Positions 22,013 to 61,628 of a stretch of DNA of 64,000 nt are shown here, one piece after another. Both the position numbers and the translations under genes were made by a program. Below the pieces are notes generated by a model. That model was not told the DNA's origin. It was given only the letters and a program-made list of their open reading frames with translations, and made no database searches. How positions within the stretch are numbered: position 1 is the stretch's first letter; every line of letters starts with the position of its first letter. The stretch is from Heliocidaris erythrogramma (taxonomy: Eukaryota; Echinodermata; Echinoidea; Camarodonta; Echinometridae): positions 17,081,880 to 17,145,879 of the forward strand of contig CM046855.1 in the NCBI GenBank assembly GCA_025617745.1, in the 5' to 3' direction.

Positions 22013-22987
22013 TCAGAAAAAAGGTTTGCGGTACAACCATGTGAGTTGGAATAACTCCACGTTCCGGTCAGAATGCTCTAACCACATGTATGTTTTAACC
22101 TTAATGTCTTTCCTCAACAGGATGACTTATTTCTCTCCACAGATTATCTCCAACAGGATTTCATGTTTCTCTCCTCAATTTGTTCATTATCATTGTTTTT
22201 CACCTCTCTCTCCTCAGCCACACCGGTCCACTTCATTCACAACATTTATTATATTTATTATTAGTATACTCATTCTGGTGTCAATATTTCACCTTTTTCC
22301 ATATGTATGTTTTTAACCTTAATGTCTTTCCTCAACAGGATGACTTGTTTCTCTCCATAGCTTATCTCCAACAGGATTTCATGTTTCTCTCCTCAATTTG
22401 TTTATTATCATTGTTTTTTCACCTCTCTCTCCTCAGCCACACCGGTCCTCTTCATTCACAACATTTATTATATTTATTATTAGTATACTCATTCTGGTGT
22501 CAATATTTCACCTTTTTCCATATGTATGTTTTAACCTTAATTTTCTTTCCTCAACAGGATGTTATGTTTCTCTCCACAGATTACCTACATTCCTAATCCC
22601 CCTTTTTGTTTCCAGCTTATCCAGACGGTTAATTGGTTTCTTAGTCCTATTGTTCACTTGTTTTCAATGTTTCTTTTCAACGCAGGAGTAATTTGATGTT
22701 ACTTATCTTTTCAATGCAGGTACCTTGATGTTATTTATCCTTTCAATGCAGGTACTTTGATGTTACTGTTACTATTTCTTTCTATACTAATTCCGTGATG
22801 TTATTGTTTGCCTCCATTTTAATAAGTGAATTGCCGCTTCATATATAAATTCTGCTGATTTATTCGCTCTTCTCATTCTCCTGACGACGGCCAGAGCATT
22901 CTGACCGGAACGTTATTCCAACTCACATGGTTGTACCGCAAACCTTTTTTCTGAATTACAACTTCACCATGCAAACCTTCAAATCCT
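22013..22987. mobile_element. Inverted-arm retroelement-like insertion with hammerhead-like core
   Basis: A 16-bp direct repeat (ATATTAGTCTAATGAT) flanks the insertion at 21997-22012 and 22988-23003. Arms of about 65 bp (22013-22078 and 22893-22956) are inverted copies. The right arm is preceded by CTGACGA (22881), a hairpin, then GGAAC, resembling a hammerhead core. The interior holds tandem repeats. A related right-end fragment occurs at 28509-28567. Penelope-like elements are known for inverted copies and hammerhead motifs; assignment is tentative and no reverse transcriptase is present. Confidence 0.55.
22085..22760 (+). repeat. ~218-bp tandem repeat (2.4 copies) and 33-bp repeats
   Basis: The unit containing cctcaacaggatgac starts near 22088, 22306 and 22523 (partial). 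Downstream, three units of about 33 bp with ttcaatgcaggtac and ttgatgtta occupy about 22676-22770. Open frames over this region are repeated and low complexity, so they are not called genes. Confidence 0.85.
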
Positions 22988-26990: not shown

Positions 26991-27441
26991 TTAATCCGTT
27001 GAGTTCAAATTAATGAGGTCCCAGTTGGGCATGGCGATGAAGATGATCATGACGTAAAGACATTCACCAATAATGATCATTGCAACAAAGATTCCCAATC
27101 CCTTGTCGAGAGCGAGGGCGAACTCGCGCCAGAGCAGGGCGTTGAGCTCTTTGTTTTTGCTGTCGCGTCGATGGAAGCGTGACTTCATCTGGAGCTTGTG
27201 GTCAATGAGCTGGGGTTCGTACAGCTGGCTGTTCTCATTTTCGTGTCCTTCCTCGCCACCGCTGTCGCTGCCGTGGTTGTGGCCGTGGTTGTGGTTGATG
27301 CTGTGGCTGTGGTTATGATTGTGTCCGTGGTTGTGACCATGAGAGTGAGAGTGAGAATGAGAGTGAGAATGAGAGTTGGTCTGGCGCATCATGTGAGGGC
27401 CTTTGCCATTTGGACTTTCCAAGTTAATAGTGCTGTACGAT
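26991..27441 (-). CDS. Cys-loop channel last exon (His-rich loop, TM4, stop)
   Basis: Begins SYSTINLESPNGKGP after acceptor cacag. It continues into about 36 residues of alternating His with Ser, Asn or Gly (coding 27270-27378), then REFALALDKGLGIFVAMIII (start of TM4), ending NSTD and TAA (rc of 26991-26993). Confidence 0.94.
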
Positions 27442-30400
27442 CTGTGTCAAATGTAAGGGTGAAATTAGTTCCGTCATTATTACTGCTAATCAATGTCCAT
27501 ACCTTGTGATTAACTTGTTAATTGTCACAACCATTAATTTTATCATTATTTCAGAACAAGTTGTGTTTTAGCAGCCTAGACTATATCTATTCGAGAACCG
27601 TACGTTTTTTAACAAACGAGAAAAAATAGATTATGTGGTTTATATTTCTTTGCAACAAACATCACTTACATGGGATTATTTTGCAAGCCATGGGCATGAA
27701 TTATCTCACCTACAGCAAAACTGGGGAATATCAGATTGTGTTTTACCAACTATAACTTAATTATATGGGACATATAAGTTTTCATGTTGATCGCCATATG
27801 CATAACATTCTCAATTTCGATATAGCATTAAATTGAGGATATGTTACCTGGAATTTCACCTCTTTAAAACGACAAGGTAACGTTTTACTGTACGTCTTTA
27901 AAAAGATGTTTCTTCATTCAAATTAAATCCATAATTCCTTGCAATAGCATATATAATAATGACTTAACGTGGAAGAGAATTGCCGGGTAAGCCATTCCTA
28001 CTAAATATGATAATTTGAAGATGAATTTAACTCAGAAGAAATCACATCAAATCGAATCTTACTTGGATTCCCTGGGTTGTTTTTCTGCGACTGTGACCAC
28101 TTCTGGAAGACTGTGTCTTTTCTTGCGCATGCGTTGTAACCGTCTTATGATGAGAAATCTTAGCCATGATGGCATGTGACGTTCACCCCCACTGTGATAG
28201 ATGCGTAGAACGATGACTGCACATACCACAGCTCCACAGCCCAATGCAATCATGATGAAGAAGAACGTTACTGGAAAATAGTAAAAACAGAAGAAAGGAT
28301 ATAGTAAATAAAACATGTCTAATCACGATCAATTCGTCATGAAATTTGACTTTTCTTCTCCACTGTGATAGATGTGTAGAATGATGACTGCATGTGCATA
28401 CCACAGCTCCACATCCCAGTGCAATCATAATGAAGGAGGAAGTTACTGGAAGGAAGTAAAAGAGGAGGAAGAAGATAATAAACTCATTATGTGTGTCCTA
28501 CCAACACACATGGTGAACCGTAAACCTTCTCCACGTTATAAACTCCACCATGCAAACCTTCAAAGATCATCTAACTCATTATGTGTTATCACAATATATT
28601 TGTGATATTCATAATGAAATCAGATGTTCGCATCCACTGTGTTGTTGTTAAATGCGGAGAATGCTTCACAGAAGAAATTTTAATGACATGAAGTAAAAGC
28701 AGAAGGAAGGAGATAATAATAATCATAATACATACATACATAACATTTATATTGCGCTTAATACAATGTTTCTAAGCGCCGAAGTCGTAGTATTATTACC
28801 CTGGCTTTGTTTGTTTGTTTGTATTTATTTCCATATTAAAAAGACAGATATACATGTTTAAATAATTATCAATGAGTACAAATATGGCGGATAGCCCATT
28901 TCAGTGGTACTAACATAGTGCCACTGTTCTTCCATGGGGTCCTTAACATATAAACAATAACATGCATATAAAACATAACAAATCATCATAATCAATAAAA
29001 CAAAACTTAATCATAATACATTAAAACCCATGACACACAAAAGGGGAAAAATAAAATGTCTTACAACTCCCCCCCCCCCCCCATCCCCACGCCAAAACAA
29101 ATTGCAACAACAGTCAACAATAGTTACCGAAAATCGAGATAGGCTTGGATATTGGATTTAAAGGAATGGACCGTTGACATTGCTGATAGATAAGAAGGTA
29201 ATTGATTGTAAAGTGTAGCCCCCCTATAAAAAAAATGTTCGTTTACAGCTACTTGTTTTCGGTCTAGGGAGACTAAGGTGATTTATTGTTCGAAGTGAGT
29301 AAGGGCAAGACTTTTGAGCAATGACATTTTCATATATTCAGGTGCAAAATTATTTAGAACTTTAGACCAGCTGCCCTATAAGGTGCTGAAAGCATTCAAG
29401 GAATAAATTCCTACCAGGTACCCATTTATTTATTGGAGAGTGGCAAATGTAGATTAATGTCTTGCCAAAGGACATTAGTGCCGCGGCGGGACTCGAACCG
29501 CGAACCATGAGATCCACAGTCCGGTGACGTATCCACTAAACCACGACACCTCTACAATGATATCAATATTTGATAATGAAGCTTTTGCGTTCCTCGTATT
29601 CGTCACATGTCACATGAGATTCTCCTTCGCTGTGGTATATGCATGTAAACGATGATCATGCACACCACAGTTCCACAGCCAAGTACAATCATGACAAAGG
29701 ACAAAATTACTGAAAGTATAATACAAATTTTAAAAAGATAGAGATATCTGTGTTTTAATTGTTTCTATCAAAACATATATTTTTGGTGTGTTTTTGAGGC
29801 GATTTTATAGGCTGGAAAAGTTAAATGTAATAATAATATCATAATTGGTAGGATTGAAGTAAATTGAATATAATCATAAGAAAGTAAATGTGAGAAAATG
29901 TAATAGTTATACTAAAGAGGAATGTAAATGCTCATGGTTCATATGATACAAAAAAACCCCCAAAAAACTTACAACATTGGTTGACGAGGAATTGCACATG
30001 GGAATGACCATAGGAAGTAAGACAGTGGGAATAATAACAGGAGAGATCCTGGAGAAGTGTCATGCAATGAGGGATTTATGTTATGAAGCTCCATCTTCTT
30101 CTTTGACAGTATCGAAATAAAAAAAGAAAAGAGGCCCAAACAAAATTACGATTTAAAAGGAGAATGCTAAAATAATGTTCGTAAGTCTATGATCCATGAA
30201 AAGTCGAATAAAGAAAGGTCTTCTTTTTCTACTCCCACGTAAACAGGTAAATTTTTATTCCACATTGAATAGAAGAAGATAGAGAACGTAATCCATCAAC
30301 AAGGAATTGTGACATTCCCAATCCTATAACATCTGCCCCCGTTCCAATTGGGAAATCGCAGGATAGTACAGCGCTCTAGTTGAAGGCATTTGTTCGAGGA

Positions 30401-32324
30401 TAGAATAATCTAACTAGCCTAGAGGTAAAAGAAATGTGGAGTTATTTCTGTTTTGATGATCGTTATTTAAAGTCTTCAGGTGCGTTGGAATTACTAGGAT
30501 TTTAGGTTCCGACGAATAAAAATAAGATTATTCCCAGTTCCAAATTTATACTCATTCCATAAATAGCCACTTTGCAATTAGAATCTAAAAGAGACTAGCT
30601 AGTATTTCTTAATCTAGAGTTACCATTCTCACACAAATCTTAGCAAACAGTATTTCCTGGGGGGGGGGGGGGCAATAAATAGTTTCTATCTTCAGGAAAA
30701 CGGATGCTTCTCAAATTGCTACTAACATTAATCCAAGGATATTCAGTTTTTGTCACCATGGTATATAAATATTGTTCAAATGACAGTACTGCATTTCCGC
30801 ACCTATAATATTAGAGGGCGCTCATCAATGACGGAGCTGTGCTTCATTTCATGTCCGGTCCTATCGCACTGGGTTTATTTCATTTAATTGTATTATTTGT
30901 TGAACTTTTGTTACACATATACAGATTTATTCATAACAAAGAAATCATATTATATCAAATTAACAATATAATTTTAACACAGAATGAAGTATATTAGTAC
31001 AGAAAGAGAAGCTAATAAAGCATAATGCATTTAAAGGGGAATAAAAGGCAACATACATTAGCCTATAATCATGTAGATAATTGTCAGCCTATTACAAATA
31101 TCTTGAAATTACTCCTATTTGATTATTTAAGAAGGAGAACAGTGTCTCCAAAAGTTGCAGTTTCCTTGCTTGACATTATCCCATGGGGGCTGCCATTTCC
31201 TTTACAAAGTAATGTCAGAACAATTCTATTTGTGAGATACCCACTGACCTATACACTAGCTACCACGACACTCATGATCAGCTGTGGAATGCATGACACT
31301 GGATTTTCTCATAATAAACCATTTTTGTAGTCATGTATATCCAAATGAAGATACTTTTATCCTGTCATATAACCTATTTGTGTCAAGATATTTGGTTCAG
31401 CTGTTATTTTTGTTAAGCAGGATTTGGCATGCACTTGTAAGTTGCCTGGTCTGACAAAGGTTTGTCAATTCTTCAAAGAAGTGACAAAGACCTACTTAGA
31501 TTTCACCTGTGCGAGACAATAGGGGTACCAAGATGGCTGCCGTTTTGCATGGGTGGCTTTAGTTGTACAATAGCTATTCATTATGCAACATCTTATCCAT
31601 TGTGTACAGGTAAATGGACATGTACCGCAATGACATCACAGTTTTTTCAAAATGGCAGCCCCCATGGGATAATATCTAGCAAGAAATCTGCAAATTTTAG
31701 AGAGACTGTTCTCCTTACTGAGTAATCAAATCAAAGTATTTTCAAGATATTTTGAACAGGCTGACAATTTTCCACATGATTATCAGCTAATGTATGTTGA
31801 GTTTCATTCTCCTTTAAGCCCACCGCACACCATACGATCGGTCTACGCTCCGATTTTGAAAGAAAATGTTATAGCATTAGATATAACACTTAAACACATT
31901 AGATATGTTTGATTGAGGTTCAGAATAGTTACATAGATAGTAAAATCGAAATTACAGGCTATTACGAGCATTCTAGTCGGAGGAAAGGCCAAATCGGCTC
32001 CGAATCGTAGTGACGTCAGAGCAGTCATGCGATTGTCTACGATTTGAAACTGATTTGGCCCTCATCCCGGATATAAGGCTGACATCTCACCAAATTCCTA
32101 TGTTGAGTATTCATATTATTGTTCAGAACCTGAATCAGCTATCTTTCACTGGTTAAACTGTCTATATTTAATGCTATTGCGATTATTTCCAAAAATCGGA
32201 TCGTAGTCGATCGTATAGTGTGCGGTGGGCTTTAAGTATTTGTATTTTAAGTTTCTGAACCTTTGTTTCATATAAAATGATAAATGTCAAAACATGTCGA
32301 TTTCATTTTCATCGTATGTAGATG

Positions 32325-32373
<49 letters not shown>

Positions 32374-35300
32374 AGTAAACAAGTAAATAAAAATTCCATT
32401 AAAATCAGAAGTTTCAAATTATTTTCCTGATGAAGGCCTATGGCCGAAAATTTGAAAACTTCTGAGTTTAACGGAATTTTTATTTACTTGTTTACTACTC
32501 ATCTCTACATTAACAATTCAATATCATATGAAAATAATCTCTCATGATATTAGTACTACATTCTCCACTAAAGAGTATTAGCGATGCGCTCTGAATGAAA
32601 ATGAGTAATGTGTTCATAATACGGCGACAGTGCAGGTATAAAAGCCACATTAACTTTACCTATCAAACTCAACACTCGTATGCCGACTACTATACGTATT
32701 TCTGAATGGCGTCAGCACCCAGCTGATATGTAAGAAAATATCCCACTAGCTCCCCCTAACGTCACCATAATGTGACCATAATAGCGTGGCTATTGGCGGG
32801 ACAGTGACAAGCCGCTCTCTGTGGGTATTTTGATTTAATTAAAGACGATCCTGTGCATATTAAACAACTTTCAATCGCTAAAATAGGATTCAAGTGCACG
32901 CAATATACGAATATTCTCTTTGTATGCCACCTCTATATTATCCTATACCCTCCTCCTCAATTTAGCCCCCCCAACAGGTCCACCCTCCCTATTGTCCTGA
33001 TTATCGGTATTTGTGTTTACCATTAGTATTTTCATAATAAATCTTTTAGATCAATGCTGTTTAGTCACATTTGTAATTAAGTCTCATCCCAATAATTATC
33101 CGCAGATTTAAACATTTTTGTGGTTAGCTTGGTTATTTAGTTCTTCGTTCTACAATTTTTTGATTTTTATTGTATTTCTAAATACTTTTGTGTCTTTTGG
33201 CAAGACATTAATCCACATTTGCCACTCTCCACCCAGGTTTAGTAAATGAGTACCTGGCAGGATTTATTCCTTGAAATGCACTTGCGCTGATTACGGCTGC
33301 CGGAGCTAAAGCCAGGGTAATAACATCCAAACCCTTTGGAAGCGCATAGAGACGTTGTATCATAACGTGTTATGCGCTATATACAAGAACGGAGTATTAT
33401 TATTTTTTTATTTTTTATCTTTTTTCCCAGAGGAAAAAAAAAATTTATTGTTTCAATACAATGACAATTCATGTACATCAGTTTCAACAAATCATCATTC
33501 AGAGTATTTAAAGAAAAGCACAGGTGAAGCCTACTGCATAAAATACTCTAAATACAACGCCCATTTCTTATTAAATTTAACACACTGATTATTTTTTTGA
33601 AAGATGTACCTCTCAAGATCAAAATACCTCTTTACCTCACCTTTGAAAATGCCGAAATTTGGAAGTGTATTATTCATTTTCATCTTATAAATATGAAAGC
33701 GGGAAATCAAAATAATAGTGTTCAAAGCACAGAATTGACGAGACCTGATTCCAAATAAACATAACTCCTCATCAATCTGTACCTGAGTTTTTGAAATCTC
33801 CCTCAACCACTGCGCTACATTGTTCCAAAAAAAGCAGAGTTATTGGACACACACAAAACAGGTGAATTAAAGTCTCTTCTTCCAGATTACAAAAAGAGCA
33901 CTGTCCTGAGTCAACTCTGTTAATTTTCAAAAGAAACGAGTTGACCCCCAAAATTCTATGGATGAGCCTATACTGGAACCACCGTAACTTTGTATCTGTT
34001 GTACATTTATAAGGAATATTGTATACTATCGACCAGATATCCTGAGAGTATTGAATGTTCAACTTATTGTGCCATTTTTCTATAAATTTCCTTTTAACTT
34101 TTTTAACAGAAACAAGCATATCATAAATATTTCTCGATCCTTTCTTATCTTTTAGAATGAAGCTACAATGGAAAGGTTTGAATGGTTGAGTAATTACAAA
34201 AGATGTGTTTTTAAGGAGACTGTCAAATGCTTTTCTAACTGCGTTCACTATACCACCATACTCAATGAAATTTGTGCGAACATTGTATCTTTCCTTAAAC
34301 ATATTAAGGGAACGGAGTATTATTATTATTATTATTATGTCACCAAATATTCGAATAATTTGTTCTTTTTGAATGATTCTGGCATTTCTTATCACATATT
34401 AAATCCATGTAACTATAATGTATGTCAAAAAATTACAACGCCATGACCATGTTTTTAAACAACTGACATGAGTCAAAAATAACCAAAACCATAATCTTGC
34501 TTATTGCTTGTCAAAGGTGCACGGATAAAGTTTAATTAGATTCGATGTCATCGTAACACCTGTAAGTAATCCTCTTTCGACAATGTGAAGTTGGATGTTT
34601 AGAAATTTCGATGTAGTTTAATGCACGTAATGTACTTGTATGGCTTGTTTTCTGTGTATGTGTGTGTGTGGGGGGGGGGGGGGCAGTTGGTGCAACGATT
34701 AATCTTATTCAATTTTTTTAGATTACCAAACCGCACATATTTTAATCCAATTCAAAGAATAGATTTGTGCAGCCTTGCAAAAGAGAATGAAATACATGTA
34801 TAAGTTAGGGATCTAGATTACTTTTTGTTAACGGGTAAAGGTATTTGGTTCTTGGCTGGTGTCATAGATTGGCGCCTGATATTTGAATATTGGAGGTCTA
34901 TTTTTACCGCCTTTTGTTTTCTCCGGTCGTAACCTTGCCACTTGTGATCTGTTTTCTACTCTCTTCGCATTGATTGTCTGCCCCACCTTGTCTATCATCT
35001 ATTACGAGTCTACGAAGCTCGATAGACACCATTCGCAGTGTTCCTTTACCATCTCCTACCTCTCTCCAATTTTGTCTGATTCTTTCCTCCAAATTTAATC
35101 GCGACTACAGATGATTAGTATGTGTGGGTTTTGTGTGTGTGTGTGTATGCGTGTGTTTCTTTCTTTCTCTGTCTTCCACTTTCATTTTCTTTTTTCATCA
35201 TACTTTATCTCCTTCTTCTCCCCCTCTCTCTCCCACTTTCTCTCCTCCTCTCTCTCTTATGTTCCCAAATTGTTTGTGGTATATATCCCATATAGTTTTT

Positions 35301-44800: not shown

Positions 44801-47800
44801 CACAAATAGAATGGTAATGGCAATGACCTGTCGTCTTGTAAACCCCGCCTGACATGCGAGCGTGCATACCACGCGTCTTGCATACTCACCGAGCACGGAC
44901 GTGGTATCCCCTATGGGCGGCATGCTGTCGGCGACTAGCTGCTGGAAGAGTATCATGGCGAGGAGATTGCTAATTGCTAACGTCACCTTCTCACCAGAGT
45001 CTGGATGGGACCAGAATGTGAGAGCCATTAGCATGGTGAGGAGAACGGATGGGACGACGACCACCTTGGTGAAGAACGCCGACTCTCCTGTCAAAAGCAA
45101 GCGTAATTATCTTTAGAGTCAACTAAGAATCGGCGTTGGTAGAATACATTCTTTAAAAACTTAAATTACTTACATGTCCTCCCACTTTTTTCTTTCCTTT
45201 TCCTTTTCTTTCCCCATTTCCTAGGAGTATTACCATTCATGCTTGTTTATACAATTCGATGTCTTATTCAGTTACTTACCATTTTTTCATTTAAGATTAA
45301 ACCGTCAAACCATAATGTCAAATGTGCAGCACAATAGTAGTGAATTGATGGTATAATAGTTTTAATATCAACTGAATACAACCTAAATGTGTTTTAAGTG
45401 GGGAATTTTTTAAAATGTATATATATATAGTTTACTTCTTAATGTATTATATTCTGCAATATGTCTTTCATTTGTGTTATACAGTCTTGTACATTGTTCC
45501 TAAAAAAACCAACAAGTACCCTGGACTTTATGTATTTCCCTTTGTTTTATGAATATGAATAAAGGTGATGTTGAATAAAACTTTACAAATCGATGTTTTG
45601 ATATTTCCTCTCAAAAAAAGGAAATAAAAATCAGCATGAAATGTCGACAAAGCAACATGATCAGTTTACTATAAAGAGCGACATCTTTGCATGGTGTTAT
45701 GTTAGAAACATTCAGGGATCCGATTGATAACGATACTCCAATCAATTTCCATTTCCTACAAAAAAGTTTGAGATATATTATTTGACACTCTTGATAGAAG
45801 TGACTATTTTAGTTATGACCCCACAAAATATGTCTCCGGATGAACAATGCAACAAATGAAGAATAACGAGGTGAACCAAGAGGTGTAAAATGAGAGAATT
45901 AAGAATAAAGACAAATAAATAAATTTATTGAAAAATTATATTACTTAGCAAAAAGATATGGTAATAATAAACGAAAATCAGGTAGGAAATTAGCTTGGTA
46001 ATTAGTGCTTTCTATTCACCTTTATACCGCAAAGCTGTTTGAAAGAAAAGTCATGGTGTGCAGAAAATACATTCCTTTCATCCATAAAAATTGATATCTT
46101 ACAAAACTCTGTTTGTACGACCATGGAGTCGCAAGGTCGTTCATTGTCTGTTGAATGTCCTTCTCGTGTTCGCACCGGGATCAGAACATGAGTACTCAAG
46201 TTCGGATAAATATTTCCAGAGGAAGAGAAGTCTCCCTCGGTAAGCGAAAATCGTGTTTGGAAATAACATGTTCATATCTTATCTAGATAGCAAGCAACAA
46301 ACGCCAATATGAACTGCGGGCGTCTTTTTCTTAATTCAAAACACGCCTTTTCTTCCTTATCATCGGTGCGATGAAGGAGTGGTTTAATATGAAAATCTGC
46401 AAGAAACAAAATACACTGATTTGCTATATCTTTTAAAGAAAATGACAGTATAAAGGACACATGGGTGTTTCTATCTTATCTAGACTAAATACTACCTGTC
46501 TTAGTAGATTTGAGGTACATGTAAACTGTCTCTTTTTCAATATTCGAAAGTTGAAACATGCATATGACACGTGCAATCACCACACTTTGTATTTTAGGAA
46601 AAAAAGGGAACATTCTTGAAGCTTATGTTTGCATATTTTTCTTCGGGACTTACTTCTGAGTCGGAGCGTGTATTTAATTTCCGTGAAGTTGTGCGGGCAG
46701 CAGACGTAGAACGGGCGAAGATTTTTGGCGGTAAACGATTCCAGTGTCCAAACTCCGTTTTTGGCAAATATATCGTCTGACGTGTCATCGGGGACTTCAA
46801 AGGTATGGAATTCAACCTGGAACGACAACAGTACAGGCGAGTCAATTGAAATGGTAGGGGAAAGATCTTTCCGTGAACATTTGGCAAATATAAAAAGAAA
46901 TCAATATGTGGGTGAAGATTTTTGTGTGAATCGTAGAGATTCAAACTTGCTTTCCATGAATGTAATCCATCGTATTGAATTTAGAGTACAAATCCCGAAG
47001 TACTAATCTTGCACTGTGGGAGAGCGTCTAGCAGAGTTGTCAATGATTGTTCTTTTGTCGTATGATATCATTGAGATAGCACTGACAAATAGTATAGAAA
47101 TATAAGTAAGATAAATAGTTTTAACATGTTAAACATGTCAGTTAAAGAGATAACAATCTCATAAAAAAGTTAGCACAATAAAAAACGAGGAAGACGAAAG
47201 AGAGATATGTTGCGAAAGGAAAGAGAGAGAGAGAGAGAGAGACAGAAAGTATTGAAAAACGAGTGGCGTATCAAGACCTTTGCTGGGGGGGGGGGGGGGG
47301 GGGGGTGAAAATATCAGAGGCAATGGTGATCCATGTATTACGTCTAAAAATCACTTTTCCGGGCTTATGTTATTGCTTGGGAGAAGGGACAAACAGACCG
47401 TTCATTTATCACTTCCTTTTTTCATCCGTAAATATTTATTTCGAAATATCATTGATTCTTTTACATAATTGTAGTAAATTTGCAAGCGAGCAAGTGGACG
47501 AAAAATCGGCCACTTTCCTATCTCGCTTTTTTCGGGGGGGGGGGGGGGGGGGGCTATTAAATGTCCCATGCCACCCATTAGATATGCCAATGGGGAAAAT
47601 GTCCACAGATTAAATACAAGATAAATGTAAACAAATCTTTCGGCATATTACTCCCAGTGTTAAAGATCGTATGCTCGATCTATAATGAAAAACACAAGTA
47701 TAAGTAATATGCCGAAAGATTTGTTTACAAATTAAAAATTCCTCCCCAGTCAAGCTTCTTCGTTTACTAACCATTGTTCCACGGCGGACCGTTTGAATAT

Positions 47801-50800
47801 TAATGAGTCAGAAAGAAAAGGATCTTGGGTATTTGATTCTAGTTCGTCGTGACTTGGCCGTGAACCAGAATAGCCTGGTGGTTAAGTCGCTGCCCGGCAA
47901 GCAGTAGATGACAGGTTCGAATCCCGCTGGTTCCAATTTTTTCTGACTTGTGTTTTTCATTATAGATCGAGCATACGACCTTTAACACTGGGAGTAATAT
48001 GCCGAAAGATTTGTTTACAAATTAAAAATTCCTCCCCAGTCAAGCTTCTTCGTTTACTAACCATTGTTCCACGGCGGACCGTTTGAATATTAATGAGTCA
48101 GAAAGAAAAGGATCTTGGGTATTTGATTCTAGTTCGTCGTGACTTGGCCGTGAACCAGAATAGCCTGGTGGTTAAGTCGCTGCCCGGCAAGCAGTAGATG
48201 ACAGGTTCGAATCCCGCTGGTTCCAATTTTTTCTGACTTGTGTTTTTCATTATAGATCGAGCATACGATCTTTAACACTGGGAGTAATATGCCGAAAAAT
48301 TTGTTTACAAATTAAAAATTCCTCCCCAGTCAAGCTTCTTCGTTTACTAACCATTGTTCCACGGCGGACCGTTTGAATATTAATGAGTCAGAAAGAAAAG
48401 GATCTTGGGTATTTGATTCTAGTTCGTCGTGACTTGGCCGTGAACCAGAATAGCCTGGTGGTTAAGTCGCTGCCCGGCAAGCAGTAGATGACAGGTTCGA
48501 ATCCCGCTGGTTCCAATTTTTTCTGACTTGTGTTTTTCATTATAGATCGAGCATACGATCTTTAACACTGGGAGTAATATGCCGAAAAATTTGTTTACAA
48601 ATTAAAAATTCCTCCCCAGTCAAGCTTCTTCGTTTACTAACCATTGTTCCACGGCGGACCGTTTGAATATTAATGAGTCAGAAAGAAAAGGATCTTGGGT
48701 ATTTGATTCTAGTTCGTCGTGACTTGGCCGTGAACCAGAATAGTCTGGTGGTTAAGTCGCTGCCCGGCAAGCAGTAGATGACAGGTTCGAATCCCGCTGG
48801 TTCCAATTTTTTCTGACTTGTGTTTTTCATTATAGATCGAGCATACGATCTTTAACACTGGGAGTAATATGCCGAAAGATTTGTTTACAAATTAAAAATT
48901 CCTCCCCAGTCAAGCTTCTTCGTTTACTAAGATAAATGTAATTCCGTAATGATTTGCTCAATTTTATACGTGAAGATATATAGCAGTCTAAAGAAAGGGT
49001 CATGTATATCCCCAACACTTCTTTTCCTTTCACCAGACACGACTTCGCTCATGCTAGGATAGGAGTCACACCCTGGTCATTGGAGCCCTTGAAGGAGACA
49101 TTATTTCGACCAGGCTGTAGACTCCTGGCTGAGCTCTTTGACTCCCATGCTCCTCAGCCCATTACATTAATGCTCTCAAGTTATGCTCAGACGCGAACCT
49201 TTCCTGCTCGACACTCGAACTTGGCTTCAGATTACCACACGCCTCCAAGATTTTGAATCATTCATAGGGGGTACACTTCTCTAATCTTAACTCTATATCT
49301 TAGAAACTCTTGGCCGAGGGGACAGTATGAACATTTGGGTCACAGTCTTGAGTCTTTGATAAGGTATAGCTTGAAAACAAAACCTTCCTTTTGTTCCTTT
49401 GTATGTCATTTGGAGGACGCCGTACATTATGTTTAAGATGGCCTTTTGTCATAATTAATATAATGTTTCTGTTAGAGGTATAGTTCAAGTAGTTTTCTTT
49501 ATTTTCCTAACAAACGAAGGTGCTAAATTCTTAAAGGATAGTTTAACCTGAAATTACGTTGTTTTTGAAGAAAAAAAAGAAGAAGAAAAAATATAAAAAA
49601 CATAAAGAAAATAATCAGACGAAAGGTAAAAAACTTAAGAAATTTTGCAGTCCTTAAAATAACTCTACCAGTTCATTACTCTGTAATTTAGTTTTGACCT
49701 TTGTGAGCTACATTTCTCTGGTTTTACACTCACAAAGTCATAAATTACATTTTCTGCCAAACACAATATTTGGAAAACATGTTATGTATGTCCTCCTGTT
49801 CAAAAATGGAGAAAATCTTTGATGAATTTATTTACAAATTATATGGAAAAGGGGAAACCATACTTAAGCCAATAAGCGCAATTCTTTATCGATTAAACAA
49901 AACAAAAACAACCCTTTTCCAACTAATTTGTCTCATTTTCTGATTTTATTCAATATATTTCTGGTGTCAGGACGGACTTCCCTGTAACAAAAAATAAATA
50001 TAAAATGGGCGAGCATGCTTGCAAATGGGTAATTAGAGCATAGATATATCCTACAAGACTTAGTCTTACCATTGTGACGTCAGCACTCCAAGGTCCAAAT
50101 GTGAGATCACAAAGCTGTATGTCAAAGGGGAAGTACCGAACGTCCACTTTACAGGTGCTCGTCATAATGGCGGGAAAATGCCAGTCACAAGTTCCATTGT
50201 ATAAGCAGACGACATACGTCTCTTGGTAACTGATGAATTCCTTGCTGCAGCTATGATGATAAATTAAAAAAAGATCAAAATGTAATAAAATTGCATTTCT
50301 TTAGTTGCACTGAATAAAACAACTGGCAGGACATATATCTTTGTTTATTTATGTCACCTTGCAAATTAATTGACGAGTAATCAGCATTTCAGTTTATTAC
50401 AAAAATAGATTAAAAGATATAAATCAAATTTCTGTAAATATGGTATCAGCTTGTTTTAAGAAATAGATAATAATGAAATATTCATTAAATGGAGGGATAA
50501 TCTTATCTCTCTATTGGCTCGAATTTATGTCAAATGACATATCACCTTATAGATTAGAAAACAAAAAAATCAAATAATAACATTTATTAAAAAAAAAGGG
50601 GGGGGGGAGTAGAAAGAACTTCCGCCCCGATTTAAGACAACATTTACCTAAATGTCATGGGAGAGCCAAAGTCGATCAATATCAAAATCTTCACTATGTC
50701 TATATAGACTTCAAATCAGTCTGTCAATTTCTCCATTATTGAAGTGAAGGTGAGAAAAATAGTTTACCGAGGGATTTATTATCGAGGAATATTAAGATTT

Positions 50801-53800: not shown

Positions 53801-56800
53801 AGTCACAACTGCACGTACGTTTTTTCAGGACGCACGGTTTCTGCGTCTTTTCGGGGTTGGAAAAAACGTCCGTGGCAGTTCGCACAGGGAGTATAAGTAG
53901 TAGCGTGGTTGCGCGGGCTTCATACACAAGGAGCAAGTATGTCTTGCAGTTAACGTGCGGCACGCAAGGCGTCAGGACGCCTCAGTCGGAAATTTAATCG
54001 TGAGTGTAACGTGCAAATGCCGTGCTATTTGTATGTGCTCCGTGCAGATGACGCAAGGTTCACGTCCGTTAATCGCACGTACACCATACGTGTTGCAAGA
54101 ACGTACGGGCCTGTTGCGCCACATTCACGCCGGTAGTAGGGTGAAAGCAAGATGAACGTACTAAACCGTACGGCGACAGTACGGTCGGCGGTGGATTTCC
54201 ACCCTCTTAGCCACACGTGTTCTCTTCTGACCCCTGCCTCTCTTGCTCCAGGCATTGTGATTCAAGAGTCAGTCCTGATTTAGAAAATGTCTTGAAGAAA
54301 CGTCGGACCTCCTGAAGACACTGAAAATTCAGAGCGAAAGTGTTGCCCGCACGGTTTTTATACCGGCCCCAAATTGGCCGTACGTTGCACGCACGTGTTT
54401 TCATGCGCCGTGGGTGGGACACACGAAGCACGCAAGTCACATGCACGTTTTCAGCTTTGATTGGATACCCGCGTGACACGCACGTGGCCCGCAAGGAGCG
54501 CATGCGCACTTGCGTGACCATCACATGCGTGCCTCGTGAGTGCTGCCTGCGGTATTCGCGCGGTTTTTACCCCCAGCAAACGTGCGACCCACCCACGCTA
54601 TTCGCACTACCCTCTTGCGGAGACTGGAGTGTTCATTACGTCCTGTCCACGGGCTGCCTGTCGTAGCGAGAACGCAGAAAATAATGTGCATATACACATT
54701 TTTGGCCTACGGCTTTAGCGTGCTGTCTGCGAACTCGAAATTCCGTACGAACAACCTGCGTCCCCCTCGCGTTTTTCCAAATTTCTGCCCGTAAACCACC
54801 CGTACAAGCCCGTACGTGCAGTTGTGACTAAGGCTTTAAGCACTTTATTTTTTCAGCAGATAATATTTAAAAAATACAAAAAAATGAAAAATAAATAACA
54901 TTTTCTTTTCGTCATGCATAATTGTCTCACAAATAGCATTTTTATAGGCGCTGTGAAAGCGATCTGTGTATTGCTCCATATTGGTATTACCGTGATTTGC
55001 CGTGGTTTTTGCAGTAGTGCTGCAGTGACGTAACGGATTTTTGCGGCTCGTACTAGTAGATATTGTAATATTTATTTTTTAAAAATCGAGATCTATGATT
55101 TTATTGACCTGAGCGATGAGTTTTTTGGTCAATCTGACTAGTTTTATAACATTAAAAATTGTAAAAATGCTAAAATTTGTCAGTGGTGTCTTCTTTAAGA
55201 CTCTCTTCAACATATATTTCTCAAAACGAACGAAGAATTGTACTTTGAGAGACAGAAGCAGACAAAAACGTCTTTCGAAAATAATCTGTCTTTTAAATCG
55301 CGATAACTGTCAAATTGATGAAATTGTCAAAAATCAAAACAGGAGTTCGTTAGTAACGTATTTTAACTGTTCCTTCAACATACTTGTCTAACATATACAT
55401 GACAGAATCATGGGTATGAATGTGAACTCAGAGTTGATTTGTTTTATCATTTTGTGCAGGGTATTTCATAAGTTCCTGGCCTCTTTATATATGTATGAAT
55501 CTTTATAATACATCTCCGGTCAGTTATTATGCTTGTTACGCGGGGTTGGAAAAAACGTCCGTGGCAGTTCGCACAGGGAGTATAAGTAGTAGCGTGGTTG
55601 CGCGGGCTTCATACACAAGGAGCAAGTATGTCTTGCAGTTAACGTGCGGCACGCAAGGCGTCAGGACGCCTCAGTCGGAAATTTAATCGTGAGTGTAACG
55701 TGCAAATGCCGTGCTATTTGTATGTGCTCCGTGCAGATGACGCAAGGTTCACGTCCGTTAATCGCACGTACACCATACGTGTTGCAAGAACGTACGGGCC
55801 TGTTGCGCCACATTCACGCCGGTAGTAGGGTGAAAGCAAGATGAACGTACTAAACCGTACGGCGACAGTACGGTCGGCGGTGGATTTCCACCCTCTTAGC
55901 CACACGTGTTCTCTTCTGACCCCTGCCTCTCTTGCTCCAGGCATTGTGATTCAAGAGTCAGTCCTGATTTAGAAAATGTCTTGAAGAAACGTCGGACCTC
56001 CTGAAGACACTGAAAATTCAGAGCGAAAGTGTTGCCCGCACGGTTTTTATACCGGCCCCAAATTGGCCGTACGTTGCACGCACGTGTTTTCATGCGCCGT
56101 GGGTGGGACACACGAAGCACGCAAGTCACATGCACGTTTTCAGCTTTGATTGGATACCCGCGTGACACGCACGTGGCCCGCAAGGAGCGCATGCGCACTT
56201 GCGTGACCATCACATGCGTGCCTCGTGAGTGCTGCCTGCGGTATTCGCGCGGTTTTTACCCCAAGCAAACGTGCGACCCACCCACGCTATTCGCACTACC
56301 CTCTTGCGGAGACTGGAGTGTTCATTACGTCCTGTCCACGGGCTGCCTGTCGTAGCGAGAACGCAGAAAATAATGTGCATATACACATTTTTGGCCTACG
56401 ACTTTAGCGTGCTGTCTGCGAACTCGAAATTCCGTACGAACAACCTGCGTCCCCCTCGCGTTTTTCCAAATTTCTGCCCGTAAACCACCCGTACAAGCCC
56501 GTACGTGCAGTTGTGACTAAGGCTTTAAGCACTTTATTTTTTCAGCAGATAATATTTAAAAAATACAAAAAAATGAAAAATAAATAACATTTTCTTTTCG
56601 TCATGCATAATTGTCTCACAAATAGCATTTTTATAGGCGCTGTGAAAGCGATCTGTGTATTGCTCCATATTGGTATTACCGTGATTTGCCGTGGTTTTTG
56701 CAGTAGTGCTGCAGTGACGTAACGGATTTTTGCGGCTCGTACTAGTAGATATTGTAATATTTATTTTTTAAAAATCGAGATCTATGATTTTATTGACCTG

Positions 56801-59800: not shown

Positions 59801-61628
59801 CTATTCACAAGCTTCTGTCATTGTGCCCAGGGCGAAGCTTCTCGTCAGTGATAATGCCAAAGGTTACTCCAAAAAGGGCAGACTGATATTGGTACCCAAG
59901 CAAATACATTTCACCTGATGAGGAGCTGCTAGGCTAGGATGATGATTCCGTAGCAGAAGATGTAGGGTGCACAAATTGGGGTTAAGGAAGGGAGAGACAT
60001 GTCTGACGAAATCTGTTATAAAATAGCATGAAATCATAAAAAGCAGTCCGTATACTCTTGGTGAATCCCCTTCTCTCTCAAACTCGAACATTAAAATATC
60101 CGTTTGTCATGTATAGGCCTAAGCGTGCTTGGATTTGGAGGGGTGTAGCTCTTACCCCTCCCTCCCCCTTAAAGAGTGTAAGATCACATGGGTTAAAGTG
60201 CAAATTCAGCCTGGTTTCCTAAATGACTGATTAAATTGAACGTGCAGTTACTTTTTATCTGATCATGAGGTATAAATTTAATATAATATGTATCTACAGA
60301 ATGCGATTAAACTTAGTAAAAGGTGGGTTCTGTGTATTTACGTTTATTAAAAGGTATCTGTTTAGCTTGGAAAAAAATATATCTTGTCAATTAAGTGATG
60401 CATCAATTCAGAGATTTGGATTTAATTATATCCCTGCATGTTCCATCGAACTCGTATCTCATAGAGATGAAAAAAAAAACACGACTCATGTAAATTTGAT
60501 AAAACGCATGTAACATCCAATTCGCAATAACAATTAAAGAGTAATATTTTTGCGAAAACTTATCAGTGTTTTTGCTCAAATAAACAATGAAAATGTATTT
60601 TGACACTTTTAAACAATGATATATACATTATTTTTGATTTCTTTTAATGAATCAGAATCATCGTAGATTGATGTTGCACCATTAAACTTAGTCTGCCATA
60701 CCCAGCATCTCATTCCCCTTCTCTATCACGTTTTGATTTGTACTCTAATTTATCATTTCAATTCTCTTCTCTTTTATAATGCTTTCCTACTACATGTACA
60801 TATTTCCGTCCATAACAGCACACATTACTCTTTAGAATTACATAAAACGATTCATTTTCTTTATAAATAATAACATATAAGAAATGACGATCCCCCTTCC
60901 AGACATTGAATCATAGACGAGTCTTATATGACGCAGTAACATTTTGTTAGCATCTGTTCTTTACATTAACCTTTTGGTAACCTCTGTGCTTTCCCTGAAA
61001 CATACCCAGAAATTCAGTCATTGCTAATAACAGTAGGATCTGTTTATACTATCGAGATAATACACTAAACAGGCATAACTATGTTTGTATAAGAATTGAT
61101 AGCACATTCTTCCTTTTCCCCTCAACTGCATTTTCCTTATGAGAATACAGTTATTATTATTATTTCAATGATTCCGTGTATTTCTGTATCTACTCTGTAA
61201 TGTCTAACTACATGTACTCTTATTTACACGACATTCCCTCTTAAATATCTCTTCTGAACATAGAACATATAGCACTTTAATGTGGTGATAATGTATATAT
61301 TTATGTACCCAATGAACTCCGTTTTAGTTTAGCATAGTGCATTTCAAGGGGAAAAATTGTAAGAAGTTGGGGGGGGGGGGGGGAAACAACGAATTTATTT
61401 TCAATTTAGCAAAGCGCAGTTTAAAAACAAATCTCACCGAGAGTGAGAGAGAGAGAGAAAAAAAAAATTACCTCGTGTAAACAGAACCAGTTTCGGTTTT
61501 CTAAGAGCGAGAACTTACCTCTGGTAAAGTGCGATATCGGGTAACCACAGGTCGGAAGGTTTGAGACTGAGAAGCTCTATACCGGCATGGTCATCCGGAT
61601 TCCAAGTGATAAACTCATCCTTCCAGCT
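26991..61628 (-). CDS. nAChR-like Cys-loop ligand-gated ion channel (3' six exons, partial)
   Basis: A pentameric receptor subunit of the plasma membrane. Visible exons in transcript order are 61628-61519, 50244-50070, 46816-46654, 45087-44890, 28270-28063 and 27441-26991, giving 434 residues in a consistent frame. Features in order: loop A (DLWLPDI), the Cys loop (C, thirteen residues, C, with YFPFD), loop C with vicinal cysteines (FYVCCPHNF), TM1, TM2 (GEKVTLAISNLLAMIL), TM3 (MIALGCGAVVCAVIVL), a His-rich cytoplasmic loop, and TM4 near the C terminus. The vicinal Cys pair marks alpha-type nicotinic subunits. Glu at -1' and Leu at 9' of TM2 indicate a cation channel. The 110-bp first exon matches the size usual for nicotinic exon 4. 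The signal peptide and first exons were not found here. The ligand is unknown, and divergence from classical subunits suggests an invertebrate-specific clade. Confidence 0.92.
28063..28270 (-). CDS. Cys-loop channel exon (TM3 and start of cytoplasmic loop)
   Basis: Encodes VTFFFIMIALGCGAVVCAVI then VLRIYHSGGERHMPSWLRFL and a basic stretch RRLQRMRKKRH. Acceptor tccag, donor gtaaga. An intron of about 16.6 kb separates it from the TM1-TM2 exon, and decayed copies of this exon lie in that intron. Confidence 0.94.
28359..28445 (-). pseudogene. Decayed duplicate of the channel TM3 exon, copy 2
   Basis: After an acceptor-like ttccag, the sequence reads FIMIALGCGAVVC, as in the true exon. A 4-base insertion (cacat region near 28397) then shifts the frame, and homology ends at about 28359 with no donor. 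It follows the working exon on the same strand by about 90 bp. Confidence 0.85.
28636..28710 (-). pseudogene. Trace of another TM3-exon copy
   Basis: Only flank-type sequence survives. Here gaagtaaaagcagaaggaag with agataataa, and ccactgtg, match the surroundings of the neighbouring exon copies, but the exon body is unrecognisable. Confidence 0.35.
28735..29560 (-). repeat. tRNA-derived SINE split by a LINE insertion
   Basis: On the - strand the head (29560-29470) reads GTCGTGGTTTAGTGGATACG and GGTTCGAGTCC, pol III A and B boxes. The body follows (TTTGGCAAGACATTAATC, TTGCCACTCTCC) down to 29360, and the tail (CCAGGGTAATAATAC, GGCGCTTAGAAACATTG) resumes at 28808-28735. The same body is found at 33.2 kb. 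Confidence 0.85.
28809..29359 (-). mobile_element. 5'-truncated LINE inside the SINE
   Basis: The - strand encodes the C-terminal end of a non-LTR reverse transcriptase (APEYMKMSLL, RGATLYNQLPSYLS, SFKSNIQAYL, stop at about 29124) with an in-frame stop earlier. A 3' untranslated region containing a C/G run follows, ending in a (CAAA)n tail. Short AAAG at both borders suggests the target site. The C-terminal pattern suits Jockey/CR1/L2-type LINEs. Confidence 0.75.
29608..29709 (-). pseudogene. Decayed duplicate of the channel TM3 exon, copy 3
   Basis: After the acceptor tttcag it reads VILSFVMIVLGCGTVVCMII, clearly homologous to the true TM3 exon. One extra base near GTTTACATGCAT then shifts the frame, and a stop follows with no donor. 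It is more diverged than copy 2, so probably older. Confidence 0.85.
31031..31817. mobile_element. TTAA-flanked MITE with ~165-bp inverted arms
   Basis: The left arm (31031-31195) and right arm (31655-31817) are inverted copies, sharing for example AACATACATTAGC, AATTGTCAGCCT, GGAGAACAGT and CCCATGGGGGCTGCCATTT. Ends are TTAAAGG. No coding capacity; open frames within are shadows. It abuts the next MITE at a shared TTAA (31814-31817). Confidence 0.9.
31815..32234. mobile_element. MITE, AAGCCCACCGCACAC family, copy 2
   Basis: The left end AAGCCCACCGCACACCATAC and right end GTGTGCGGTGGGCTTTAA are inverted, with interior similarity to copy 1 at 23.7 kb (tgacgtcagagc, gattgtctacgatt). About 420 bp, non-coding. 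Confidence 0.88.
32326..32370. repeat. (TA)n(GA)n microsatellite
   Basis: ATATAT repeats pass directly into about 15 GA units next to the inverted-arm element. Confidence 0.92.
32371..32499 (+). mobile_element. Compact inverted-arm element with hammerhead-like core
   Basis: AGTAGTAAACAAGTAAATAA at the left is repeated in inverse at the right (ending 32499); arms are about 50 bp. The centre reads CTGATGA (32427-32433), a short self-complementary AGGCCTATGGCC, then GAAA (32446-32449), the conserved order of a hammerhead ribozyme core. Hammerhead motifs are known in Penelope-like elements and retrozymes. Whether stems I and III form properly is not clear from reading. Confidence 0.55.
33189..33404 (+). 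repeat. SINE body and tail (headless)
   Basis: Contains TTTGGCAAGACATTAATCC, TTTGCCACTCTCCACCCAGG, GCTAAAGCCAGGGTAATAAC and GCGCTATATACAAG, ending in a (TATTA)-type tail. The tRNA-like head is missing. A LINE is inserted in its tail. Confidence 0.82.
33387..34327 (-). mobile_element. 5'-truncated L1/Tx1-type LINE inside the SINE tail
   Basis: An 18-bp direct repeat (GAACGGAGTATTATTATT) lies at 33387-33404 and 34310-34327. The - strand frame 34318-33772 encodes an RT C-terminal region with a zinc-knuckle-like segment (LRWFQYRLIHRILGVN, CSFCNLEEETLIHLF, CVCP), as in L1-type ORF2. It is continued in another frame to 33531 (NTIILISRFHIYKMK, KWALYLEYF). At least one frameshift separates them, so it is dead. 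Confidence 0.88.
37843..38020. repeat. GGTTCATAATTCCGAA repeat cluster
   Basis: Copies of GGTTCATAATTCCGAA and its inverse TTCGGAATTATGAACC occur at about 37865, 37904, 37974 and 37999, with related spacers. Together they form an imperfect inverted repeat about 175 bp long. Non-coding; probable foldback-type element. Confidence 0.7.
39677..39767. mobile_element. 91-bp TTAA MITE (short derivative)
   Basis: TTAAAGTGATTTGTTAACTT at the left and AAAGTTACCGAATCCCTTTAA at the right are inverted. The same ends and inner segment (TATTAAATCAAGCCTCC) occur in the 410-bp element at 61927-62336, so this is an internally shortened relative. Confidence 0.85.
44040..44200. repeat. GA-rich low-complexity tract
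   Basis: (GA)n and (AAAG)n runs in the channel intron; apparent reading frames through it are low-complexity. Confidence 0.85.
44890..45087 (-). CDS. Cys-loop channel exon (TM1-TM2), 198 bp
   Basis: Encodes ESAFFTKVVVVPSVLLTMLM (TM1), HPDSGEKVTLAISNLLAMIL (TM2) and LVADSMPPIGDTTSVL. Acceptor gacag, donor gtgagt. TM2 reads Glu -1', Thr 2', Ser 6', Leu 9', Leu 13', Asp 20'. Confidence 0.95.
45088..46653. other. Channel intron, nothing recognised
   Basis: About 1.57 kb of AT-rich DNA between the TM1-TM2 and loop C exons. No repeat family or coding exon was recognised. Confidence 0.5.
46654..46816 (-). CDS. Cys-loop channel exon (loop C), 163 bp
   Basis: Encodes VEFHTFEVPDDTSDDIFAKN, GVWTLESFTAKN and FYVCCPHNFTEIKYTLRLR. 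Acceptor ccag, donor gtaagt. The YVCC motif is the agonist-binding vicinal cysteine signature. Confidence 0.94.
46817..47629. other. Channel intron segment with GA and poly-G tracts
   Basis: Contains (GA)n at 47222-47242 and two poly-G runs of about 20 bases at 47284-47305 and 47534-47553. The segment from AGTGGCGTATCAAGACC (47263) between these runs may be another small G-tract-bearing element. Confidence 0.5.
47862..47934 (+). tRNA. tRNA-like sequence, array copy 1 (SINE head or tRNA pseudogene)
   Basis: 73 nt with a perfect 7-bp acceptor stem (GAACCAG / CTGGTTC), an A-box-like TAGCCTGGTGGTTAAG, an anticodon-arm-like hairpin CTGC-CCGGCAA-GCAG and a perfect B box GGTTCGAATCC. The D stem has about 3 pairs and the T stem has mismatches. 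Position 33 is C, not the near-universal T, so decoding function is doubtful. Confidence 0.5.
48152..48224 (+). tRNA. tRNA-like sequence, array copy 2
   Basis: Same 73-nt sequence as the first array copy, 290 bp downstream, with identical A and B boxes. Confidence 0.5.
48442..48514 (+). tRNA. tRNA-like sequence, array copy 3
   Basis: Identical to copies 1 and 2 over the 73 nt. Confidence 0.5.
48732..48804 (+). tRNA. tRNA-like sequence, array copy 4
   Basis: Differs from the others by TAGTCTGG in place of TAGCCTGG in the A-box region; otherwise the same. Confidence 0.5.
48944..50069. other. Channel intron, nothing recognised
   Basis: Moderately AT-rich; the segment 49030-49260 is less AT-rich but shows no coding signature or repeat that I can identify. 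Confidence 0.45.
50070..50244 (-). CDS. Cys-loop channel exon (Cys loop), 175 bp
   Basis: Encodes SKEFISYQETYVVCLYNGTC, then DWHFPAIMTSTC, KVDVRYFPFDIQLC and DLTFGPWSADVTM. The canonical Cys-x13-Cys loop is intact. Two additional cysteines (VVC, GTC) lie about six residues apart just upstream and are unusual for the family. Donor gtaaga. Confidence 0.94.
51715..52240. mobile_element. Decayed relative of the 13.85-kb TTAA MITE
   Basis: Shares AAATCCAAACCT, ATTGGTGAAAGTGCGAAC, AAATCGG, GAGGACCTA, GCCCCGAGGG and TCCGATTTATTT in the same order as 13850-14289. Terminal repeats are eroded, so it is older than that copy. Confidence 0.65.
52500..52770 (+). pseudogene. THAP-domain coding region with a 1-nt frameshift
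   Basis: From ATG 52500 the frame reads MPLCQAIYCSNRRENCPGKS, then FF. A T7 homopolymer (52560-52566) carries one base too many, and the reading continues in the next frame as AIPDPKKDRERCAVWIRNIR, ending CEDHF and a stop at 52768-52770. CxxxxC and the later C-x2-H (CEDHF) make a complete C2CH THAP zinc finger. It resembles the THAP start at 13060 (MPFCTAYNCTNR). The family is used by P-element transposases and by host DNA-binding proteins. No transposase follows. It may be a dead P-like element or an intron-borne gene fragment; a sequencing error in the homopolymer is possible. Confidence 0.8.
53026..53800. mobile_element. CpG-rich inverted-repeat element A
   Basis: TTAAGCCTAGGTCACAAC with CGCCGTACG at the left is inverted at the right (CGTACTT... 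/ GTACGGCGGGTTGTGACC, then TAGGCTT). The interior is strikingly rich in ACGTAC, GTGCGT and CGTACG words against an AT-rich background. No open reading frame of note. Superfamily unknown. Confidence 0.75.
53796..54838. mobile_element. CpG-rich inverted-repeat element B
   Basis: AGTCACAACTGCACGTACG at the left (53801-53819) and its exact inverse at the right (54811-54830) bound about 1 kb of CGTACG-rich DNA. It abuts element A and its termini are a variant of A's (GTCACAAC), so the two are related or one composite. Several open frames here are by-products of the high GC and are not called. Confidence 0.75.
53852..55540 (+). repeat. 1.69-kb tandem duplication, unit 1
   Basis: Begins CGGGGTTGGAAAAAACGTCC and runs through most of element B and about 700 bp of flanking AT-rich DNA, ending tgcttgttacg. 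The next unit begins immediately. Confidence 0.95.
55116..55391 (+). other. Conserved-in-duplicate ORF of 91 residues, function unknown
   Basis: Reads MSFLVNLTSFITLKIVKMLK and then a basic segment (KRTKNCTLRDRSRQKR), ending NCSFNILV. The second duplication unit has an 88-residue version with an in-frame 3-codon deletion (56805-57071). Frame preservation may be chance given the few changes. No homology recognised. Confidence 0.2.
55541..57221 (+). repeat. 1.69-kb tandem duplication, unit 2
   Basis: Nearly identical to unit 1. Differences noticed include C to A near 56263, G to A near 56401, a 9-bp deletion near 56837 and small changes near 57125 and 57159. Both units meet at CGGGG, giving a 5-bp microhomology at the junctions. 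Confidence 0.95.
57615..57790. repeat. (GA)n-rich tract
   Basis: Interrupted GAGA/CAGA runs over about 175 bp; the Arg/Glu frame through it is an artefact of the repeat. Confidence 0.92.
61519..61628 (-). CDS. Cys-loop channel exon (loop A), 110 bp
   Basis: Encodes SWKDEFITWNPDDHAGIELL through PSDLWLPDIALYQ. Acceptor gtcag, donor gtaagt. WLPDI corresponds to the conserved WxPDI of loop A. Confidence 0.93.

Follow-up and report, generated by a model that had tools for sequence, protein, structure and literature searches.

Inside a receptor gene of the 64,000-nt stretch that we analysed (the window), we found three extra, damaged copies of the 5' part of the exon encoding transmembrane helix TM3. 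Most likely these copies never worked as exons. They are probably partial tandem duplications that lacked a donor, were inactive from birth and are now decaying.

The receptor gene and its TM3 exon

The gene in the window lies on the minus strand and encodes a Cys-loop (nicotinic-type) receptor, whose ligand-binding and transmembrane domains follow each other in the expected order. Its pieces run from about 61.6 kb down to 27.0 kb in the order ligand-binding domain, TM1-TM2, TM3 and TM4. A Pfam scan of six pieces gave three above cut-off (PF02931 twice, PF02932 once), while PF02932 matched the TM3 and TM4 pieces only below cut-off and no Pfam family matched the loop C piece. The closest relatives of the TM1-TM3 peptide were acetylcholine receptor chains (best E 3.7e-16).

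Four minus-strand exons, with boundaries set by eye, precede TM3. They encode part of the ligand-binding domain (WNPDD...SDLWLPDI; 61519..61628, Neur_chan_LBD E 1.7e-8), the Cys-loop (C-X13-C; 50070..50250, Neur_chan_LBD E 2.6e-15), loop C (46654..46815), which has vicinal cysteines (YVCC) like alpha-type subunits, and TM1-TM2 (44890..45087, Neur_chan_memb E 7e-13). Position 44890, from which an earlier sequence-only reading of this DNA had proposed to look for splice junctions, is where the TM1-TM2 exon ends, and the donor there is G/GTGAGT in phase 1 (the slash marks the exon boundary).

The working TM3 exon, called c1 here (28063..28270, minus strand, 208 nt, delimited from sequence), carries the TM3 helix and the start of the intracellular loop. 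Its acceptor, ...TTTTCCAG followed by TAACG (CAG/TAACG), is in phase 1 (G/TA), a phase common to six paralogs, and its donor GTAAGA begins at 28062. Against Neur_chan_memb, c1 stayed below cut-off (E 0.018, profile 61-113); it also matched DUF446 at E 0.0068, likewise below cut-off yet ranked higher. The last exon (26991..27441, minus strand, boundaries by eye; Neur_chan_memb E 0.13, below cut-off) encodes a histidine-rich part of the intracellular loop, TM4 and the stop codon. As a side observation, the loop is very histidine-rich at 27200-27400 of the window (HSHSHSHSHGHNHGHNHNHSHS), and is perhaps metal-binding. The intron between TM2 and TM3 measures 16.6 kb (44889 to 28271) and contains all the extra TM3 copies.

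Elsewhere in the window, 54207-54666 and 55896-56355, 1689 nt apart, hold identical 119-aa minus-strand frames and plus-strand frames of 113 aa that differ by one residue as read. By its sequence, this pair would be a recent direct duplication.

Extra copies of the TM3 exon in the intron

The sequence-only reading had placed two further copies of the exon's 5' half in this intron, at 28359-28445 and 29608-29709, each with an acceptor, and a possible trace near 28640. Both copies (c2 and c3) and the trace, which we call the remnant, are real. By blastn, c2 matched c1 over 28360-28482 (82% identity, E 9e-30) and c3 matched it over 29607-29715 (73% identity, E 3e-10). When each pair was compared with 1000 dinucleotide-preserving shuffles, none reached the observed scores, which were 420 for c1-c2 (best shuffle 132), 269 for c1-c3 (best 115) and 254 for c2-c3 (best 108). 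CAG is kept at the acceptor of each copy (28446-28448 in c2, 29710-29712 in c3). The trace near 28640 was upheld as well: its score was reached by 0/1000 dinucleotide shuffles against c1, 0/1000 against c2 and 8/1000 against c3. Mononucleotide shuffling gave 0/2000 for c2 against the remnant; the match of c3 as a whole to the remnant was weak (22/2000). The order and orientation of the copies bear out the claim that all lie in the direction of the gene.

Anatomy of the array

The exon start of c2 is exactly 175 nt away from that of c1, and 28140-28318 and 28319-28493 are identical at 134 of 169 aligned positions over the whole 175-nt period. From this alignment, unit 1 (28140..28318, minus strand) comprises the first ~130 nt of the working exon and 48 nt of intron. 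Unit 2, that is c2 (28319..28494, minus strand), was delimited by its alignment, shuffles and a donor scan; it comprises an intron head, the acceptor and the 5' part of the exon with a 4-nt frameshifting insertion, and no donor was found in it. TRF, run on the window and on a joined view, did not report the 175-nt array.

A 78-nt insert (28495..28572, no strand assigned) lies between c2 and the remnant. It is delimited by an exact 14-nt repeat, AACTCATTATGTGT, at 28481-28494 and 28573-28586, and without it the c2 and remnant units would abut. Part of the insert (28500-28560) resembles 22918-22979 (77%), and the whole is possibly a small mobile element. The remnant unit (28587..28745, minus strand), defined by the shuffles, has kept its intron head, lost the AG of its acceptor, which now reads CAT, and lost the helix core by deletion. 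It ends in a short c2-like tail, whose match to the c2 tail alone was reached by 26/2000 shuffles.

Between the remnant and c3 lies a stretch of ~0.8 kb (approximately 28760..29555, no strand assigned) that is probably a mobile-element insertion, since 41 nt of it (29434-29474) recur inverted at 33191-33231 with 95% identity. Beside this inverted repeat we noticed, by eye, a tRNA-like sequence, and the two together look like a SINE; ARAGORN found no tRNA in 28000-34000.

Copy c3 (29607..29716, minus strand), delimited by blastn, shuffles and the donor scan, has an acceptor and, in agreement with the earlier description of a readable helix, reads VILSFVMIVLGCGTVVCMIIV before an extra base; no donor was found in it. 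Its similarity to c1 beyond the helix part was reached by 144/1000 shuffles, so the c3 breakpoint is not located. No match between its tail and any other tail stood out from chance (scores reached by 122-290 of 2000 shuffles). The unmatched tail and the weak match to the remnant leave the membership of c3 in this array probable rather than shown, and an origin of all units as one array is likewise probable.

Where the duplicated unit ends bears on what the copies could ever have done. If the full 175-nt period is taken as one unit, it would stop within the exon at about nt 127-130 of 208, and if the weak part of c2 is discounted, similarity ends near exon nt 92, so that either way it stops well before the donor. 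The evidence for this end is weak: the similarity past exon nt ~86-92 was reached by 74/1000 dinucleotide and 14/1000 mononucleotide shuffles, and in a narrower test by 30/2000, compared with 322/2000 for a control stretch. At the other end, the intron more than ~25 nt from the acceptor, taken alone, is not similar between c1 and c2 (771/1000 shuffles; 402/2000 for the far intron end of the unit). With an end somewhere between nt ~92 and 130 of the 208-nt exon, the duplicated segment probably never brought a 5' splice site into the copies. We infer that the donor was removed by the duplication breakpoint and not by later decay.

Splice sites and reading frames of the copies

To look for donors we scanned for GTRAG, GTATG and GTAAT downstream of the c2 acceptor to 28271 and of the c3 acceptor to 29300. 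No GTRAG was present in these stretches and the sole match was a GTATG at 28401, inside c2, which agrees with the earlier statement that neither copy has a visible donor. The small frame-shifting changes reported for both copies were also found: the 4-nt insertion of c2 and the one extra base of c3 produce different frameshifts, and the required frame is not open. Mutually exclusive exons are expected to have an acceptor and a donor each; c2 and c3 show no such pair, and in the remnant the acceptor is lost. With a threshold of E 0.05, the 3' half of the exon matched only itself in the window. For comparison, five other exons gave three short matches in the window (E 0.007-0.032) and none longer.

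The sequence-only reading took the copies for a past set of alternative TM3 exons, which would have been mutually exclusive before losing their donors and frames. Pyrimidine tracts and acceptors do survive in c2 and c3, as such a history would predict. However, neither a 3' half of the exon nor a donor turned up at the copies, and in c2 similarity stops inside the exon, before the donor.

The surviving acceptors raise another prospect, in which the copies serve at present as decoy acceptors or poison exons and thereby reduce gene output. The acceptors of c2 and c3 look usable, and an exon begun at either would meet an early stop. Against this, neither copy has a strong donor for a cassette exon, the remnant has lost its acceptor, and the sole polyadenylation signal in the scanned stretches, at 29434, lies ~275 nt past the c3 acceptor. 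We regard present use of this kind as improbable. We also weighed recursive splicing and did not adopt it.

Divergence and selection

Differences between c1 and c2 fall on the three codon positions as 2/3/4 (28 codons), with 4/9 at third positions (P 0.49), and those between c1 and c3 as 5/4/7 (21 codons), with 7/16 at third positions (P 0.43). For a working pair, c1 and its nearest paralog, the counts are 4/3/15, with 15/22 at third positions (P 0.001). The copies therefore show no synonymous excess, which argues against their having been alternative exons, although with so few sites an earlier period of selection could have gone unnoticed. Amino-acid changes in c2 are somewhat few for a neutral copy (P 0.09-0.13; for c3, P 0.17-0.31). 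Another point against neutral decay of c2 is the lower divergence of its helix part than of its intron head (Fisher P 0.09). Few neutral simulations left the c3 helix as hydrophobic as it is: P was 0.006 when c1 was taken as the ancestor, and ranged from 0.008 to 0.037 when the ancestor was inferred and three mutation biases were applied; hydropathy was one of four statistics tried. This retained hydrophobicity (P 0.006-0.037 overall) is a point for former exons, but a weak one.

In a tree of nine sequences (c1, c2, c3 and six paralogs), the three window sequences separate from the paralogs with 68% bootstrap. Their branch lengths of 0.024 (c1), 0.074 (c2) and 0.34 (c3) are, at the level of sequence, as expected if selection holds c1 but not the copies. 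Neither informative sites (0:1:2) nor bootstrap support (57% for c2 with c3) fixes the branching order among the three.

The age of c2 could be underestimated if gene conversion had homogenised its helix part with c1. Consistent with this, c2 differs from c1 at 9/84 positions in the helix part and 9/37 in the intron head, and the intron heads of c2 and the remnant differ at 8/45. But the difference between helix part and intron head is not significant (Fisher P 0.09) and constraint on c1 alone could suffice to produce it, so we consider such conversion unlikely.

TM3 exons elsewhere in the genome

A search of the same genome with the TM3 peptide yielded 21 matches of E 1 or lower. For eight related genes we searched the 10 kb reaching upstream of TM3; since their TM2-TM3 introns span only ~0.3-1.5 kb between matches, this covered the whole intron. 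No convincing extra TM3 copy was found in these eight introns, next to which the 16.6-kb intron of the window gene is an exception. One candidate, a second TM3-like stretch in a paralog on C6 (L029, ~674-806; nhmmer E 0.05, tblastn E 0.11), was dropped after its score of 106 was compared with the best of 300 shuffles, 115 (mean 72). Separately, we observed that two receptor genes on C6, at 3742369 and 5025550 (L008 and L009), lie 1.3 Mb apart on opposite strands and have the same TM3 exon as read. This could reflect a recent inverted duplication, or the assembly may contain one locus twice.

A different arrangement was found on C8, where two TM3 exons of 110 nt each, A (24521302-24521411) and B (24520051-24520160), both on the minus strand, have an AG acceptor and a GTAAG donor. 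Their starts are 1.25 kb apart and they share 25 of 37 residues. The A-B differences fall as 11/6/22 on the three codon positions, a third-position excess (P 0.003) that points to purifying selection on the pair. The Pfam matches listed nearby include ligand-binding pieces at 24525514 and 24524258, TM2 at 24522978 and TM4 at 24512858; among the matches listed, at least one each of ligand-binding pieces, TM2 and TM4 stands in minus-strand order, with no TM1 among them. Both exons apparently belong to one acetylcholine-receptor gene. In the 1141 nt between them, inspection by eye of the three gene-strand frames revealed no further receptor exon. As 110 cannot be divided by three, a transcript with both exons would lose the reading frame. 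With equal lengths, both splice sites and a frame broken by joint use, the C8 pair is a sequence-based candidate for mutually exclusive TM3 exons. Like the window copies, the pair involves the homologous exon, at the same intron position and phase in our own alignment, in tandem and in gene orientation; unlike them, both exons are intact, with acceptor and donor, and appear to be under purifying selection.

The C8 pair offers the idea of former alternative exons in the window a further weak point in its favour, since another gene of this genome has two intact TM3 exons. Yet the eight paralogs have no convincing copies, and taken with the early end of similarity in c2 and the lack of third-position skew, this leaves it improbable that the window copies were once mutually exclusive exons. 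Alternative TM3 exons are an apt idea for the C8 gene but not for the window gene. Serial duplication and decay, the core of the sequence-only reading, is supported: the copies exceed chance, c2 and c3 are frameshifted, and the remnant has lost both its acceptor and its core. The other possibility that this reading allowed for, tandem copies that were inactive from the start, accounts for the array better than alternative exons do.

Under inactive duplication from the start, a segment of ~175 bp, made up of ~48 nt of intron and the 5' half of the TM3 exon (208 nt), would have been duplicated in tandem several times, and each extra copy would have taken the acceptor and the helix-coding half but not the donor. 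Without a donor the extra copies could not be defined as normal exons, and hence would have decayed neutrally. Such neutrality may explain the different frameshifts of c2 and c3, the lost acceptor and core of the remnant, and the insertions between units.

Relation to known exon duplications

Exon 3 of the insect nAChR alpha6 gene corresponds to loop D. According to published reports, exon 3 and exon 8 (TM2) of this gene are duplicated, with the copies found in transcripts (PMC1919356, PMC2064938, PMC3644170). The window gene resembles insect alpha6, as these reports describe it, in being a nicotinic receptor gene with tandem exon copies, but its copies are of the TM3 exon, partial and frameshifted. 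One of them places the start of TM3 at exon 9, next after exon 8, with the codon of the TM3 residue G275 in Frankliniella alpha6 split between the two exons, and associates the TM3 mutation G275E with spinosad resistance in insects (PMC3644170). In our own alignment, the split codon corresponds in position to the acceptor of the window TM3 exon. The candidate C8 swap thus concerns a helix that is not swapped in the insect alpha6 sets compared. For tandem exon duplications in general, a published abstract treats duplicated exons and support for their expression (PMC9013439); the window copies likewise lie in tandem within a gene, but unlike exons with such support they have no donor. A literature search turned up, among its titles and abstract beginnings, no account of a nicotinic receptor with mutually exclusive TM3 exons.

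It is plausible, if somewhat short of an even chance, that the TM3 exon was tandem-duplicated at least twice independently in this genome, giving rise on C8 to a working mutually exclusive swap, and in the window to an event that fell short of the donor and died. If so, the two loci would be the success and the failure of one process, and the intact C8 pair can be compared directly with the window copies. If a receptor subunit exchanged its TM3, gating or assembly could change. The window array itself reflects an ordinary process, and is an unusually readable record of how exon duplication fails when the acceptor is copied and the donor is not.
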